This document shows, piece after piece, positions 13,244 to 44,234 of a stretch of 64,000 nucleotides of DNA (positions are counted from its first letter, which is position 1; each line of letters starts with the position of its first letter). The notes under the pieces are model-generated. The model was not told the DNA's origin. It made no database searches and saw only the letters and a list, made by a program, of their open reading frames with translations. The DNA is from Cupriavidus alkaliphilus (GTDB lineage Bacteria; Pseudomonadota; Gammaproteobacteria; Burkholderiales; Burkholderiaceae). The DNA is taken from positions 62,001-126,000 of the forward strand of contig NZ_FMAD01000014.1 in assembly GCF_900094595.1 (NCBI RefSeq), given 5' to 3'. A program made the translations under genes and the position numbers.

Positions 13244-13936
13244 ATGCCCGAGCATATCGATCCTGACATGACTGCCGAAGCGATTGCCGACGACATCGTC
13301 GCGGCGATCGTTTCGCACCGCCTGCCGCCCGGCACCAAGCTGCGCGAGGAGGCGCTGGCCAGCGTCTACCGCGTCAGCCGCACCAAGGTGCGCGCGGCGC
13401 TGCTGATGCTGTCCAAGGACAAGGTCATCCAGATCGTGCCGGACAAAGGGGCGTTCGTGGCCAAGCCGAGCGCCGAGGAGGCGCGCGAGGTGTTCGCGGT
13501 GCGCCGCATCCTCGAAGCCGCGCTGGCGCGCGAGTTTGTCGCCAAGGCCACCGCCGCCGACTACAAGCGCATCGACCGCCACCTGGCGGCCGAGCGCAAG
13601 TCGCTGGCGGGCAACGATGCCCAGGTGCGCACCCGGCTGCTGGGCGACTTCCATATCGTGCTGGCCGAAGTGGTAGGCAACGGCGTGCTGACCGAGATGA
13701 TGCGCGAGCTGTCGACGCGCAGCGCGGTCATCACCATGTTGTACCAGTCGCGCCGCGACGCGGCCTGCTCGTCGGACGAGCACCGCGAGTTCATCGAGGC
13801 GGCGCGTGCCGGCGATGTCGAGCGCGCCGTCACGCTGATGGTGGACCACCTGGGCCATGTGGAAGGGGCGCTGCATTTCGAGGAAACCGCGCCGGTGGCG
13901 CGTGGTAAGGACCTCGTTGCCGCGCTGCTGGCCTAG
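13244..13936 (+). CDS. GntR family transcriptional regulator, FCD (FadR) subfamily
   Basis: 230 residues from ATG 13244. Winged helix-turn-helix at residues 10-70 (AIADDIVAAIVSHRLPPGTKLREEALASVYRVS region, then LLMLSKDKVIQIVPDKGAFVAKPS). The FCD ligand domain follows with metal-binding residues in FHIVLAEVVGN and DEHREFIEAARAGD plus a final VDHLGHVE. FCD regulators sense carboxylates and usually repress a neighbouring catabolic or transport gene; the adjacent dctA and the divergent amidohydrolase are the natural candidates. Separated from dctA by 48 nt, probably co-transcribed. Confidence 0.88.
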   Translation: MPEHIDPDMTAEAIADDIVAAIVSHRLPPGTKLREEALASVYRVSRTKVRAALLMLSKDKVIQIVPDKGAFVAKPSAEEAREVFAVRRILEAALAREFVAKATAADYKRIDRHLAAERKSLAGNDAQVRTRLLGDFHIVLAEVVGNGVLTEMMRELSTRSAVITMLYQSRRDAACSSDEHREFIEAARAGDVERAVTLMVDHLGHVEGALHFEETAPVARGKDLVAALLA

Positions 13937-13992: not shown

Positions 13993-14006
13993 TTGATGTG
14001 AGTCAA
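13993..14006 (+). promoter_or_regulatory. FNR/ANR-type oxygen-response box ahead of a candidate small RNA
   Basis: TTGAT-GTGA-GTCAA matches the FNR/ANR family recognition pattern (TTGAT-N4-GTCAA or ATCAA) at nine or ten of ten defined positions. Its centre (13999.5) is about 41.5 bp before 14041, the classic class II activator distance, and CAAACT at 14029-14034 sits where a weak -10 is expected. No protein gene starts within 500 bp downstream. A second FNR-type box precedes hemN in this window. Confidence 0.55.
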
Positions 14007-14040
14007 AGCACCCCGGGCCGCCCGCGCGCAAACTTCATCT

Positions 14041-14144
14041 CGCCATGAAGACGCGGGGGCGCACTTCATGAGCACTTGCCTGCCGGCACCTCATCGTCGG
14101 CAGGCTGCCCGCACGCTGCAACGGTGTGCGGGCTTTCTTTTTTC
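14041..14144 (+). ncRNA. Candidate FNR-controlled small RNA
   Basis: About 100 nt between the predicted start (near 14041) and a strong terminator, with no protein gene. Hairpin 1: CATGAAG (14044-14050) pairs with CTTCATG (14064-14070). Hairpin 2: GCCTGCCG (14078-14085) pairs with CGGCAGGC (14098-14105), its 12-nt loop containing CACCTCAT, complementary to a GAGG-type ribosome site plus ATG. Hairpin 3: GCCCGCAC (14107-14114) pairs with GTGCGGGC (14126-14133), followed by TTTCTTTTTTC. Start at a 5' hairpin, open or loop pairing region and rho-independent end fit an Hfq-type regulator. Alternatives: 3' UTR of the GntR gene, or a leader with an 8-codon ORF at 14045-14071. Confidence 0.5.
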
Positions 14145-14194
14145 TGAGGACGGGGTTCCGCGGCGCCGAATGGCGCGCTGCCCCGCGGCCTCGA

Positions 14195-14226
14195 ACCGGT
14201 GCCGTCCCGCACCGGTTTTTCCCTTT
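14195..14226 (+). terminator. Second intrinsic terminator in the gene-free stretch
   Basis: ACCGGTGC (14195-14202) and GCACCGGT (14209-14216) form a perfect 8-bp stem with a 6-nt loop, followed by T-rich sequence TTTTTCCCTTTT. It lies 60 nt after the terminator of the candidate small RNA. It either backs up that terminator or ends a second short transcript from 14146-14194, which itself can fold (CGGGG at 14151-14155 with CCCCG at 14181-14185). The rest of the gap to 14528 shows nothing further. Confidence 0.6.
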
Positions 14227-14528: not shown

Positions 14529-15332
14529 ATGCCCAGCGCCTTTCGCCCCGACGCCTTTGCCGGCAAGACCGTATTCGTCGCCGGCGCCTCGTCCGGCATC
14601 AACCTTGGCATCGCGCACGGCTTTGCGCGCGCCGGCGCCCGGCTGGCGCTGATCAGCCGCACCGCCGAGCGCATCCAGGCCGCCGCCGACACCATCACCG
14701 CGGCCGGCGGCACCGCCATCGGCATGGCCGCCGACGTGCGCGACTACGCCGCGGTGGAAGCCGCCCTTGTGCGTGCGCAGGACGAACTGGGCCCGATCGA
14801 CGTGGTCATCTCCGGCGCCGCCGGCAATTTCCTGGCGCCCGTGGTCGGCATGTCGGCCAATGCCTTCAAGACCGTGGTCGATATCGACCTGCTCGGCACC
14901 TTCAACGTGTTCCGCGCCAGCTTCGACCACCTCAACAAGCCGGGTGCGTCGCTGATCGCGATCACCGCGCCGCAGGCGGTCAACGCCATGATGTTCCAGG
15001 CCCATGCCTGCGCCGCCAAGGCCGGCATCAACATGCTGATCAAGTGCCTGGCGATGGAATGGGGACCGGCCGGGGTGCGCGTGAACGGCATCTCGCCTGG
15101 CCCGATCGCCGACACCGAAGGCATGGCGCGGCTGGCGCCGACGCCGGAGATGGAGGCCCGCTACAAGGCGCGCCTGGCGTTGCGCGACTACGGCACCAAG
15201 GACGACATCGCCGACGCCGCGATGTACCTGAGCAGCGACAACGCTCGCTACGTCACCGGCACCATCCTCGACTGCGACGGCGGCAGCAAGCTCGGCGACG
15301 CCTCGGCCGACGCGCTGAAGAAGCCGCAATAG
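14529..15332 (+). CDS. Short-chain dehydrogenase/reductase of the 2,4-dienoyl-CoA reductase type
   Basis: 267 residues; AAGGA precedes ATG 14529. Cofactor motif VAGASSGINLG (residues 16-26), SRTAERI suggesting NADP preference, and SGAAGNFLAPV in place of the usual NNAG. The normal YxxxK of SDR enzymes is absent: the active lysine is in CAAKAGINMLIKCLAMEWGP and the residue four before it is Ala, as in 2,4-dienoyl-CoA reductases, which use a different Tyr. NGISPGPIADTEG and the C-terminal VTGTILDCDGGS agree. First of three genes for unsaturated or aromatic acyl-CoA breakdown, with two crotonase enzymes following. Confidence 0.8.
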   Translation: MPSAFRPDAFAGKTVFVAGASSGINLGIAHGFARAGARLALISRTAERIQAAADTITAAGGTAIGMAADVRDYAAVEAALVRAQDELGPIDVVISGAAGNFLAPVVGMSANAFKTVVDIDLLGTFNVFRASFDHLNKPGASLIAITAPQAVNAMMFQAHACAAKAGINMLIKCLAMEWGPAGVRVNGISPGPIADTEGMARLAPTPEMEARYKARLALRDYGTKDDIADAAMYLSSDNARYVTGTILDCDGGSKLGDASADALKKPQ

Positions 15333-38438: not shown

Positions 38439-39911
38439 CTACACCACGCGCGAGTAGCGCGGCACGATGCGGATCGGCTGGGCGCCGTCGTTGGCGGCGC
38501 GCGCGCCGTTGTCGACCGGCCGGGCGGCGTCGTCGCGCAGGTAGCGGTCGAACACCATCGCCACGCGGCGCACCAGCAGCCGGCCCAGCGGCGTCACGGT
38601 GATGCGGCCGGGCTCGCAGCGCACCAGCCCGTCCGCGGCCAGGCGGTCGAGGTCGGCCAGTTCTGCCGAGAACGTCAGGTTGAAATCGATGCCATGCCGC
38701 GCCTCGATCGCCGGCAGCTCGAGCACCCCATTGCACATCAGGTCGCCGATGATCTCGCGCCGCAGGTGGTCGTCGGCCGTCATCGCCACGCCCCGCGCCA
38801 GCGGCAGGCGGCCCTGGTCGAGCGCGCCGTAGTAGTCGTCGAGCGTGCGCGCGTTCTGCACGTAGCGCCCCGCGATCGCGCCGATGGCCGAGATGCCGAG
38901 GCCGACCTGGTCGTAGCCGGCATGCGTCGAATAGCCCTGGAAGTTGCGCTGCAGCCGGCCCTCGCGCTGGGCCACGGCGAGGTCGTCGTCGGGCAGCGCG
39001 AAGTGGTCCATGCCGATATAGACATAGCCCTCGGCGGTCAGCCGCTCGATCGTCGAGACCAGGATGTCGAGCTTCTCGCCGGCCGGCGGCAATGCGTTTT
39101 CGTCGATGCGGCGCTGGGGCTTGAACACGTGCGGCAGGTGGGCGTAGCTGTAGACCGAAAGGCGGTCTGGCCGCAGCGCCAGCACCTGGTCGATGGTGCG
39201 GCCGAAGCGCGCCGCGGTCTGGTGCGGCAGGCCGTAGATCAGATCCAGGCTGACCGAGCGAAAGCCCAGCGCGCGCGCGGCATCGACCACGGCGCGGGTC
39301 TCCTCGAACGGCTGGATGCGGTGGATGGCCTGCTGCACCTCGGGGTCGAAATCCTGCACGCCCAGGCTGACGCGGTTGAAGCCCAGTTCGGCCAGCAGCG
39401 CCATGCGGTCCTGGTCGACGCGGCGCGGGTCGATCTCGATCGAGTGCTCGCCGTCGGCCGCCAGCGCGAAATGCGTGTTCAGCAGCGCCATCACGCGACG
39501 CATTTCCTCCGGGTTCAGGAAGGTCGGCGTGCCGCCGCCCCAGTGCGACTGGATCACCTGCCGGCGCGTGCCCAGGCGCCCGGCCACCAGCGCCATCTCG
39601 CGGCCCAGGTAGCTGACGTAGCGCGCGCTGCGGCCGTGGTCGCGGGTGATGATCTTGTTGCAGCCGCAGTAGTAGCAGATGTTTTCGCAGAACGGGATAT
39701 GCAGGTACAGCGACAGCGGCGCCGGCGCGTCGGCGCGGCAGGCGTCCAGCGCGTCGTGGTACAGCGACAGGTCGGGGCCGTTGCGGAAGCGGTCGGCGGT
39801 CGGGTACGAGGTATAGCGCGGACCGTTGCCGTCGATGCGCCCGGCCAGCGCGCGGAAGTCGGAGAGCGCGCGGCGGTCGAGCGCGGGGGAAGTCATGGCA
39901 GACGGATTCAT
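38439..39911 (-). CDS. hemN: Oxygen-independent coproporphyrinogen III dehydrogenase
   Basis: 490 residues (ATG 39896 is a shorter alternative). Radical-SAM motif with Cys75, Cys79 and Cys82 in [15 protein letters not shown], the extra fourth Cys84 typical of true Hem[13 protein letters not shown] at the N-terminus (needed for a second SAM), [11 protein letters not shown] and [15 protein letters not shown]. These separate HemN from HemW. Decarboxylates coproporphyrinogen III to protoporphyrinogen IX without oxygen. An FNR-type box lies 61 bp upstream, so expression should rise under low oxygen. A terminator shared with the cytochrome gene follows. Confidence 0.95.
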
Positions 39912-39971: not shown

Positions 39972-39985
39972 TTGACCGCCGTCAA
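39972..39985 (-). promoter_or_regulatory. FNR/ANR-type box upstream of hemN
   Basis: TTGAC-CGCC-GTCAA, a perfect palindrome of the FNR/ANR pattern (TTGAT-N4-ATCAA with T to C changes at both inner positions). It is centred 67 bp before the hemN start. FNR-type control of hemN is well established in several proteobacteria. Confidence 0.7.
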
Positions 39986-43936: not shown

Positions 43937-43944
43937 GCGCGCAT

Positions 43945-44170
43945 CCGACCGGGAGAGCGCGCATCGCTTGCGCCGCCGAAGGGGTATCACCCGAAAACTC
44001 TCAGGCACCACGGACCGGTCGGATCGGCATGCAACATGCACACGATGCATGCCGCACTCTGGAGAGCGGCACCCGCCATTCGTGGCGAGCGTGCCCACCG
44101 AAGGGGCGCGCGAGGATGGGGTCCATGGGATCCGCCTCGTAATCTCTCAGGTATCGAGGACAGAGGGGTC
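43945..44170 (+). promoter_or_regulatory. Tandem glycine riboswitch
   Basis: Two glycine aptamers in a row. Aptamer 1 (43945-44024): CGACCGGGAGAGCG opening, CCGCCGAAGGGG, ACCCGAAAACTCTCAGGCACC and closing GGACCGGTCGG. Aptamer 2 (44056-44168): CTCTGGAGAGCGGC, CCACCGAAGGGGC, AATCTCTCAGGTA and closing GGACAGAGG. Both carry the conserved GGAGAG / CCGAAGG / CTCTCAGG core. It sits 100 nt ahead of gcvT and is followed by a terminator hairpin, so glycine binding should allow read-through (ON switch), as in characterised glycine riboswitches. Confidence 0.96.
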
Positions 44171-44234
44171 ATCCGCCGCAGCGGATCGCTTGCCATATTG
44201 GCGTAGCGAAGGTTGCGGCGGATGACCCTTTTTT
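44166..44234 (+). terminator. Riboswitch expression-platform terminator
   Basis: GGGTCATCCGCCGC (44166-44179) pairs perfectly with GCGGCGGATGACCC (44215-44228), followed by six T (44229-44234). The left arm begins inside the closing stem of aptamer 2, so glycine-stabilised aptamer folding would compete with terminator formation. A second, inner stem (GCGGATCGCTTGCC region) lies within the loop. Confidence 0.85.

Follow-up and report, generated by a model that had tools for sequence, protein, structure and literature searches.

Between a gene for a GntR/FCD-family regulator and a gene for a short-chain dehydrogenase (SDR), the window analysed here (the whole stretch of 64,000 nucleotides, C26:62001-126000 of the source genome G000, which comprises 6.1 Mb in 34 contigs) contains an FNR/ANR-type box followed by a series of potential hairpins. 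The first-pass annotation had proposed that this was an oxygen-controlled RNA of about 100 nucleotides with an FNR/ANR box at class II distance and its own terminator. The question is whether the locus is an RNA gene in its own right, and which of its parts would matter for function. The features on which the following analysis relies are listed below.

13244-13936, plus strand: GntR/FCD-family regulator gene (gntR), the 5' neighbour, outside the RNA gene; from gene reading
13993-14006, plus strand: FNR/ANR(DNR)-type box TTGATGTGAGTCAA; from a motif scan, the box being kept across the family
14029-14034, plus strand: −10-like element CAAACT, at −12 to −7 if +1 is 14041; from alignment columns
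14041-14144, plus strand: predicted non-coding RNA of about 100 nt, type A sibling; 5' end placed by class II spacing, 3' end by the terminator
14042-14073, plus strand: hairpin 1 (HP1), the best-conserved part of the RNA; from folding and the alignment of copies
14053-14062, plus strand: HP1 tip GCG-GGGG-CGC, near-invariant in types A, B and C
14078-14105, plus strand: hairpin 2 (HP2), with loop ACCUCAUC at 14088-14095, lineage-specific; from folding and comparison
14107-14144, plus strand: intrinsic terminator, composed of a hairpin (14107-14133) and a U-rich tail; from folding
14529-15332: SDR gene, downstream, with its ATG at 14529

The box TTGATGTGAGTCAA lies 57 bp downstream of the gntR stop (13936) and is the sole perfect match to TTGATNNNNRTCAA within the window. 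When one mismatch was allowed, 6 matches were found on both strands of the 64 kb, compared with 1.37 expected (palindromes being counted twice). Its centre at 13999.5, combined with the class II spacing of −41.5, places the predicted +1 at 14041, immediately before HP1, which starts at 14042; the 14-bp box at about 41.5 bp from the predicted RNA start was correctly located by the first-pass annotation. The −10-like CAAACT begins 22 nt past the end of the box. A second FNR-type box had been reported at hemN, and we found it as TTGACCGCCGTCAA at positions 39972-39985, 60 bp before the ATG of a hemN-like ORF (38439-39911, minus strand) that was named from its cysteine motif. Elsewhere in the window, two tandem glycine riboswitch aptamers are present at 43940-44173 on the plus strand (59.9 and 43.7 bits).

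As for the RNA itself, the segment 14033-14142 folds into HP1, HP2 and the terminator with a minimum free energy of −59.9 (compare with −37.9±3.3 for 200 shuffled sequences), which corresponds to a z score of −6.67, and 0 of the 200 shuffles was equally good. The eight perfect pairs attributed earlier to the terminator are present and enclose four further pairs, two of them G-U. A second terminator-like hairpin was observed 3' of the RNA's own terminator, at 14193-14218. The claim that no protein gene starts within 500 bp had to be corrected, as the ATG of the SDR gene is 488 bp past 14041 and 385 bp past 14144. In agreement with the absence of any named RNA in the first-pass annotation, no Rfam family reached its gathering threshold at the locus. 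Taken together, a box at class II distance with a −10 element and, judged by sequence only, a non-coding product ending at its own terminator are what an FNR-activated small RNA would present, and they support the view that the locus is an RNA gene, terminated on its own and read from a putative promoter of the class II FNR type. The best overall explanation, to which we assign a probability of about 0.8, is a stand-alone gene for a non-coding RNA of about 100 nt, one of several Cupriavidus siblings that would be made on oxygen loss.

We searched for relatives of this locus at several scales. A DNA search of 60 genomes, 36 of them from the own genus, gave matches in 32, of which 31 were own-genus, and 30 loci were retrieved; the one match outside the genus (G037) was 24 nt long. 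A box TTGAYNNNNRTCAA was present in all 30 retrieved loci and ended 46-47 nt before the loop in the 28 of 28 that were measured. The covariance model R1, built on the RNA alone from 27 sequences and searched in 398 genomes of the family, matched 59 own-genus genomes and many others weakly. Nine of these weak matches were inspected (own-genus L074, L075 and L078; L080-L085 in others) and discarded as a tRNA followed by a terminator or as unrelated sequences, three own-genus matches being such chance tRNA-plus-terminator combinations. The model R2, which extends from the box to HP1, was searched in the same 398 family genomes and in 399 genomes drawn from the order. In the family it gave 145 matches in 59 own-genus genomes, with 1 to 5 per genome, and no match in 338 other genomes, the 20 of these that were listed including no own-genus entry; its single weak match elsewhere in the family (G201) proved on inspection to be devoid of an HP1-type hairpin and terminator. 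In the order draw, three own-genus genomes matched and the other 396 of the 399 did not (20 of the latter were listed). These large-scale searches used stricter filters, so that weak matches may be lost. One own-genus genome, G012, which is 54% complete, had no match in the DNA search and is absent from the later matches.

We also scanned a title-bearing genome collection for the box followed by GNNGCGGGGGCGC at the right distance. The 80 loci listed (81 stretches) comprised 62 from Cupriavidus, two from Ralstonia sp. 25mfcol4.1, two from Burkholderiaceae bacterium 16 and 14 from scattered groups; when these last 14 were folded and inspected, none showed an HP1 stem followed by a terminator. 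The genus that holds the relatives is Cupriavidus, and nothing convincing was found outside it with R2 in the 398 family and 399 order-drawn genomes.

For the final count, a copy had to show the core GCGGGG(G)CG, the stem, the terminator and, unless a contig end intervened, a box with no more than two mismatches; this gave 144 copies in 59 genomes: 52 of type A, 63 of type B, 28 of type C and one variant. Eleven loci were rejected at this step, namely chance ones, L300, and L077, a type B copy truncated where its contig ends. Upstream sequence is missing for one copy (L250), hence the 143 copies used for box counts, and the two plasmid records described below (L252 and L253) are outside the 144. 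The helix rule of a first count had missed 18 loci (ten real and eight chance) and passed the false cores L080 and L225. In a second count, 20 chance cores were removed but a real copy (L066, with a one-mismatch box) was lost as well, leaving 140 copies on which the neighbour-gene, linker and folding statistics rest. Type B was found in all 59 genomes, type A, to which the window locus belongs, in 52, and type C in 28; in G000, types B and C are located at C28:208194-208294 and C14:99554-99650, respectively. The seven genomes with a single copy (G001, G016, G020, G032, G034, G195 and G208) always carry type B, which may thus be the oldest type. The three types look like paralogues that share one predicted layout across Cupriavidus.

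How strictly is this layout kept? Among the 143 copies with upstream sequence, the box TTRAYNNNNRTCAA was perfect in 138, had one mismatch in 4 (all of type B) and two mismatches in 1 (the variant). When positions were drawn at random from these loci and the best of five spacings was taken, boxes with no more than one mismatch turned up at a frequency of 0.2%, a figure that includes the real sites. The loop follows the box end at a distance of 44-47 nt in types A, B and C, and of 48 nt in the variant. When 55 copies of all types were aligned, the −10 columns 39 (A) and 43 (T) were kept in 54, and the spacer before them was variable; the −10 is usually CAnnnT in type A, mostly TAnnAT in type B and TAGAAT in type C, always at the same position. 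Expressed as bits per column of this alignment, conservation amounts to 1.71 in the box half-sites, 0.43 in the box centre, 0.36 in the spacer, 0.99 in the −10 hexamer, 1.67 in HP1, 1.93 in the HP1 tip and 0.35 in the six end columns. The promoter and the hairpin are constrained and the intervening sequence is not. Box, spacing, −10 element, HP1 and terminator recur jointly across the genus, and this joint recurrence is beyond chance. The proposal of an RNA gene therefore withstood the comparison with relatives, where the stem is conserved and 142 of the 143 boxes have at most one mismatch.

This conservation bears on another reading of the locus, according to which the RNA is no more than a processed or read-through tail of the gntR mRNA, and the box a chance resemblance to a promoter. 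Type A indeed follows gntR in 51 of 52 copies, and the gntR match stops, at its 3' side, 71-223 nt before the loop. However, the same box, spacing, hairpin and terminator are found in types B and C behind other genes, a ferritin-like gene for 22 of 63 type B copies and an HU-like gene for 20 of 25 type C copies, or on plasmids, and both the box and the −10 are conserved, which makes a mere gntR tail highly improbable. On the downstream side, a gene for a solute-binding protein follows type B in 48 of 63 copies. As for type A, the sequence 3' of it differs on inspection between species, and the idea of an attenuator of the downstream gene was rejected for this reason.

Plasmid searches gave no match with type A and three Cupriavidus records with type B. 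One type B copy is on pHG1 of C. necator H16 (L252, 216720-228927), between phaP2/nap and hmpA, and another on a C. taiwanensis plasmid (L253). The pHG1 copy sits in a nap/hmpA/hemerythrin region and, from our reading of the DNA, is preceded by a ferritin-like coding remnant that does not appear in the gene table.

Within the RNA, the near-invariant element is the HP1 tip GCG-GGGG-CGC, which types A, B and C have in common: all 55 aligned copies agree in columns 63-71, and 54 of 55 in column 72. The two exceptions among the 144 copies are L008, with one G fewer, and L072 (GCGT). Since copies were selected by the core GCGGGG(G)CG, this invariance is in part by construction; nevertheless, every real own-genus match retrieved with R1 or R2 carries the core, and R1 did not demand it. 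In HP1, 95.6% of the cells are paired, compared with 28.7-54.7% in slid versions of the helix. Three pairs show two-sided changes, a count reached by 34 of 500 shuffles. Per 500 shuffles, the observed value was reached by 2 for cells paired, 2 for cells with a two-sided change, 469 for pair types and 1 for the covariation score, which is 0.092; two of the six slid versions score about as high (0.091 and 0.093). Covariation is limited because HP1 varies little: the hairpin is clear and its covariation modest. When the 119 distinct RNAs were folded singly, exactly three hairpins were obtained in 117 and the G-run was in an apical loop in 118, with median z scores of −5.1 for type A, −6.1 for type B and −4.2 for type C (worst value −0.44). 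The terminator stem shows sequence changes with pairing kept at several pairs.

HP2, in contrast to the shared tip, is wholly different between types A, B and C. The first-pass annotation had singled out its C-rich, anti-Shine-Dalgarno-like loop. The loop is there, but CACCTCAT occurs in close type A relatives only, and it was rejected as the functional core since the second hairpin is another one in the remaining type A RNAs and in types B and C. The earlier reader seems to have seen a real gene, whose transcription is predicted, and to have made a good guess at its control; conservation lies elsewhere than in the part that this reader took to be functional. In type B, the loop of the second hairpin varies and the linker is nearly invariant (CTTGTCTACCCGTTTCC in most of the 63 copies).

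The HP1 sequence could also be read as a small mRNA, either through an 8-codon ORF within the hairpin (AUG AAG ... UCA UGA) or through a G-rich ribosome site followed by an AUG that opens a second ORF. The 8-codon ORF is present in 38 of 52 type A and 58 of 63 type B copies, many of which read MKTRGRTS or MEMRGRSS with a stop that overlaps the second AUG, and a 15-codon ORF exists in 11 of 25 type C copies. Yet the 8-codon ORF is missing from 14 of 52 type A, 5 of 63 type B and all 25 type C copies, and for the second ORF, 11 of 140 copies have no AUG and 99 of 140 have no stop before the end of the terminator. Moreover, the HP1 columns that vary freely outside type C (61, 62 and 73) belong to bulges or internal loops, third codon positions are nearly invariant, and in type A copies without the second AUG (column 79), both partners have changed so that the pair is preserved. 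No ORF is kept across the 140 copies checked; as the frame is not conserved, peptide coding was rejected, and we see almost no chance for it.

We then looked at the occurrence of the tip outside the three types. In 4 genomes, TGCGGGGGCGC occurs 56 times; 50 of these loci were folded (30 and 20), and the six others are four known A or B copies and two occurrences in G003. Apart from copies of the three types, a single one of the 50 folded loci (G023, L333) combines the tip hairpin with a terminator, and five other loci have tip pairs and no terminator. The variant RNA of G023 (L301, G023:C1:1864314-1864401, minus strand) also has the G-tetraloop tip, borne by a stem unrelated to HP1, and a terminator. 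Upstream of it lie an FNR-type box with two mismatches and, spaced much as in the other copies, a −10-like CAAGAT.

A tip that is near-invariant across three otherwise different types, and that is borne on a different stem in G023, could indicate a protein-binding decoy that titrates an RNA-binding protein without oxygen, instead of an RNA that acts by base pairing. The known decoys RsmY and RsmZ carry several motifs, whereas one motif is present per RNA here. In addition, the type B linker is also nearly invariant, which suggests pairing, and we have no candidate protein. A decoy is therefore rather unlikely, and a base-pairing RNA is preferred.

What would read the box? Ten proteins of the genome score above the cut-off for a Crp-type helix-turn-helix. 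Two of these Crp-family proteins (L284 and L285) combine an N-terminal cysteine cluster with an LETVSR helix, as expected of FNR, and L293 has an RETVSR helix and no cysteine cluster. The genome also encodes hfq. The most serious competitor to oxygen control is that the box is read mainly by DNR, the NO-responsive paralogue of FNR, in which case the RNAs would report nitrogen oxides, as in denitrification, rather than the lack of oxygen. The N-terminal cysteine cluster of two candidate regulators argues against this, since FNR has such a cluster and DNR as a rule lacks it; so does the presence of type B in all 59 genomes, denitrification not being known as universal in Cupriavidus. On the other side, the pHG1 copy is near nap and hmpA, and L293, a third Crp-family protein with an E..SR helix, lacks the cluster. 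According to the portion of PMC1274295 available, DNR orthologues exist in three Ralstonia species and the DNR motif CTTGATnnnnATCAAG is hard to tell from an FNR box, so that the box cannot separate FNR from DNR. Against L293 as the DNR-type regulator, the arginine that precedes its glutamate, as in CRP, goes with a different third base of the box (PMC1274295). We consider control mainly by DNR unlikely, if clearly the strongest of the alternatives, and keep FNR as the preferred regulator.

With FNR, or possibly DNR, as a class II activator, a fall in oxygen would lead to synthesis of the RNA, as the family to which the box belongs suggests. From its form and from precedent, the RNA would base-pair with mRNAs, its U-tail probably being bound by Hfq, and this pairing may repress functions that are dispensable without oxygen. 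The G-rich HP1 tip shared by the siblings could be their common contact, through kissing-loop pairing to C-rich sites or by binding a protein. A private second contact of each sibling could come from its linker, such as CUUGUCUACCCGUUUCC in type B. This split between common and private targets is the least certain step of the explanation. For one 10-mer of the type B linker, the complement AAACGGGTAG was searched in 6 genomes: 28 sites were found, 6 of which are in the RNA genes themselves, compared with 45 for the reversed control. There was thus no enrichment of AAACGGGTAG and no target from this single 10-mer in the six genomes, which, like the modest covariation of HP1 and the two-mismatch box of the G023 variant, weighs against the proposed explanation. 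Four Cupriavidus genomes share one of these sites, an inverted repeat CTACCCG..CGGGTAG directly before a −10-like TACACTATA (L266 at G000:C29:93702, L265, L271 and L279). It looks like an operator-promoter and, given its position before a −10-like sequence, is probably not transcribed.

A broader proposal, which we find plausible though rather short of an even bet, is that of an anaerobic RNA hub: up to three or more dispersed siblings, each under its own class II FNR promoter, would share a near-invariant G-tetraloop module (GCG-GGGG-CGC) and differ by private linker seeds, and the module could be moved to a new stem and be carried on megaplasmids. If true, RNAs controlled by FNR would have a new architecture, in which siblings share a loop as their seed and obey a single oxygen switch.

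Hydrogen oxidation, denitrification and bioplastic production, for which Cupriavidus species serve as model hosts, all depend on oxygen supply. In the literature searched, mostly at title level, we found neither an earlier description of this RNA nor any oxygen-controlled regulatory RNA described in Cupriavidus. A transcription start site study of C. metallidurans, based on cultures with copper and on controls, reports in the part available 35 candidate orphan sRNAs, which may overlap the RNAs predicted here (PMC7563307). With a promoter, boundaries and three sibling types defined by sequence, RNA control of the aerobic-anaerobic switch becomes testable in C. necator H16.

How do these RNAs compare with known systems? 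Rfam holds an FnrS model, and FnrS was not among the weak Rfam matches at the locus in E-value searches; by Rfam sequence and structure, the RNA does not belong to FnrS. The weak matches that were obtained are far below threshold, with 15.9 bits for RF02278 (threshold 50), 19.5 for RF02231 sX12 (106) and 16.4 for RF02837 anti-hemB (49.5), so that the RNA is not a member of these families either, and such scores probably reflect the generic shape of a hairpin plus a terminator. RF02278, the Betaproteobacteria toxic sRNA (bdhR1, similar to Bordetella S17), is likewise a short RNA with a C-rich stretch and a terminator, but a C-rich loop is not conserved in the Cupriavidus family. For S17, the available part of PMC11722255 describes a sigma-A promoter and a conserved 27-nt region near a C/U-rich loop.

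FnrS of Enterobacteriaceae is Hfq-dependent and has its own terminator, and the N. meningitidis counterpart of the gonococcal fnrS is AniS. The FNR site of E. coli FnrS is of class II, centred at −41.5, in the part of PMC3032703 available, and FnrS is FNR-controlled and represses more than 30 mRNAs in that of PMC8139620. The Cupriavidus RNA resembles FnrS as a predicted small RNA with a class II FNR-type site, and it differs by its three sibling types with 1 to 5 copies per genome. The siblings are best read, by analogy, as trans-acting RNAs that would work like FnrS and not as FnrS members by sequence. Closer in phylogeny is the fnrS of N. gonorrhoeae, also betaproteobacterial, which the same part of PMC3032703 presents as a single such RNA with a class II FNR site, a 5' stem-loop, an unstructured stretch and a terminator, flanked by bacterioferritin genes; the likeness is by description only. 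These flanks recall the ferritin-like gene that precedes type B in 22 of 63 copies, and the ferritin-type neighbours could reflect shared ancestry or coincidence. The Neisseria siblings NgncR_162/163 and their meningococcal equivalents are likewise paralogous sRNAs that share parts of their sequence; FNR activation is not among their features in the descriptions available, whereas the Cupriavidus siblings are dispersed, each with its own box.

The Cupriavidus RNAs would add a case, beside FnrS and the gonococcal RNA as partly described, in which FNR drives a small RNA and no kinship in sequence has been detected. By their predicted promoter and form they belong to a known functional kind, the FNR-controlled RNAs; by their sequence and sibling arrangement they appear to constitute a new genus-wide RNA family, outside the Rfam families tested.
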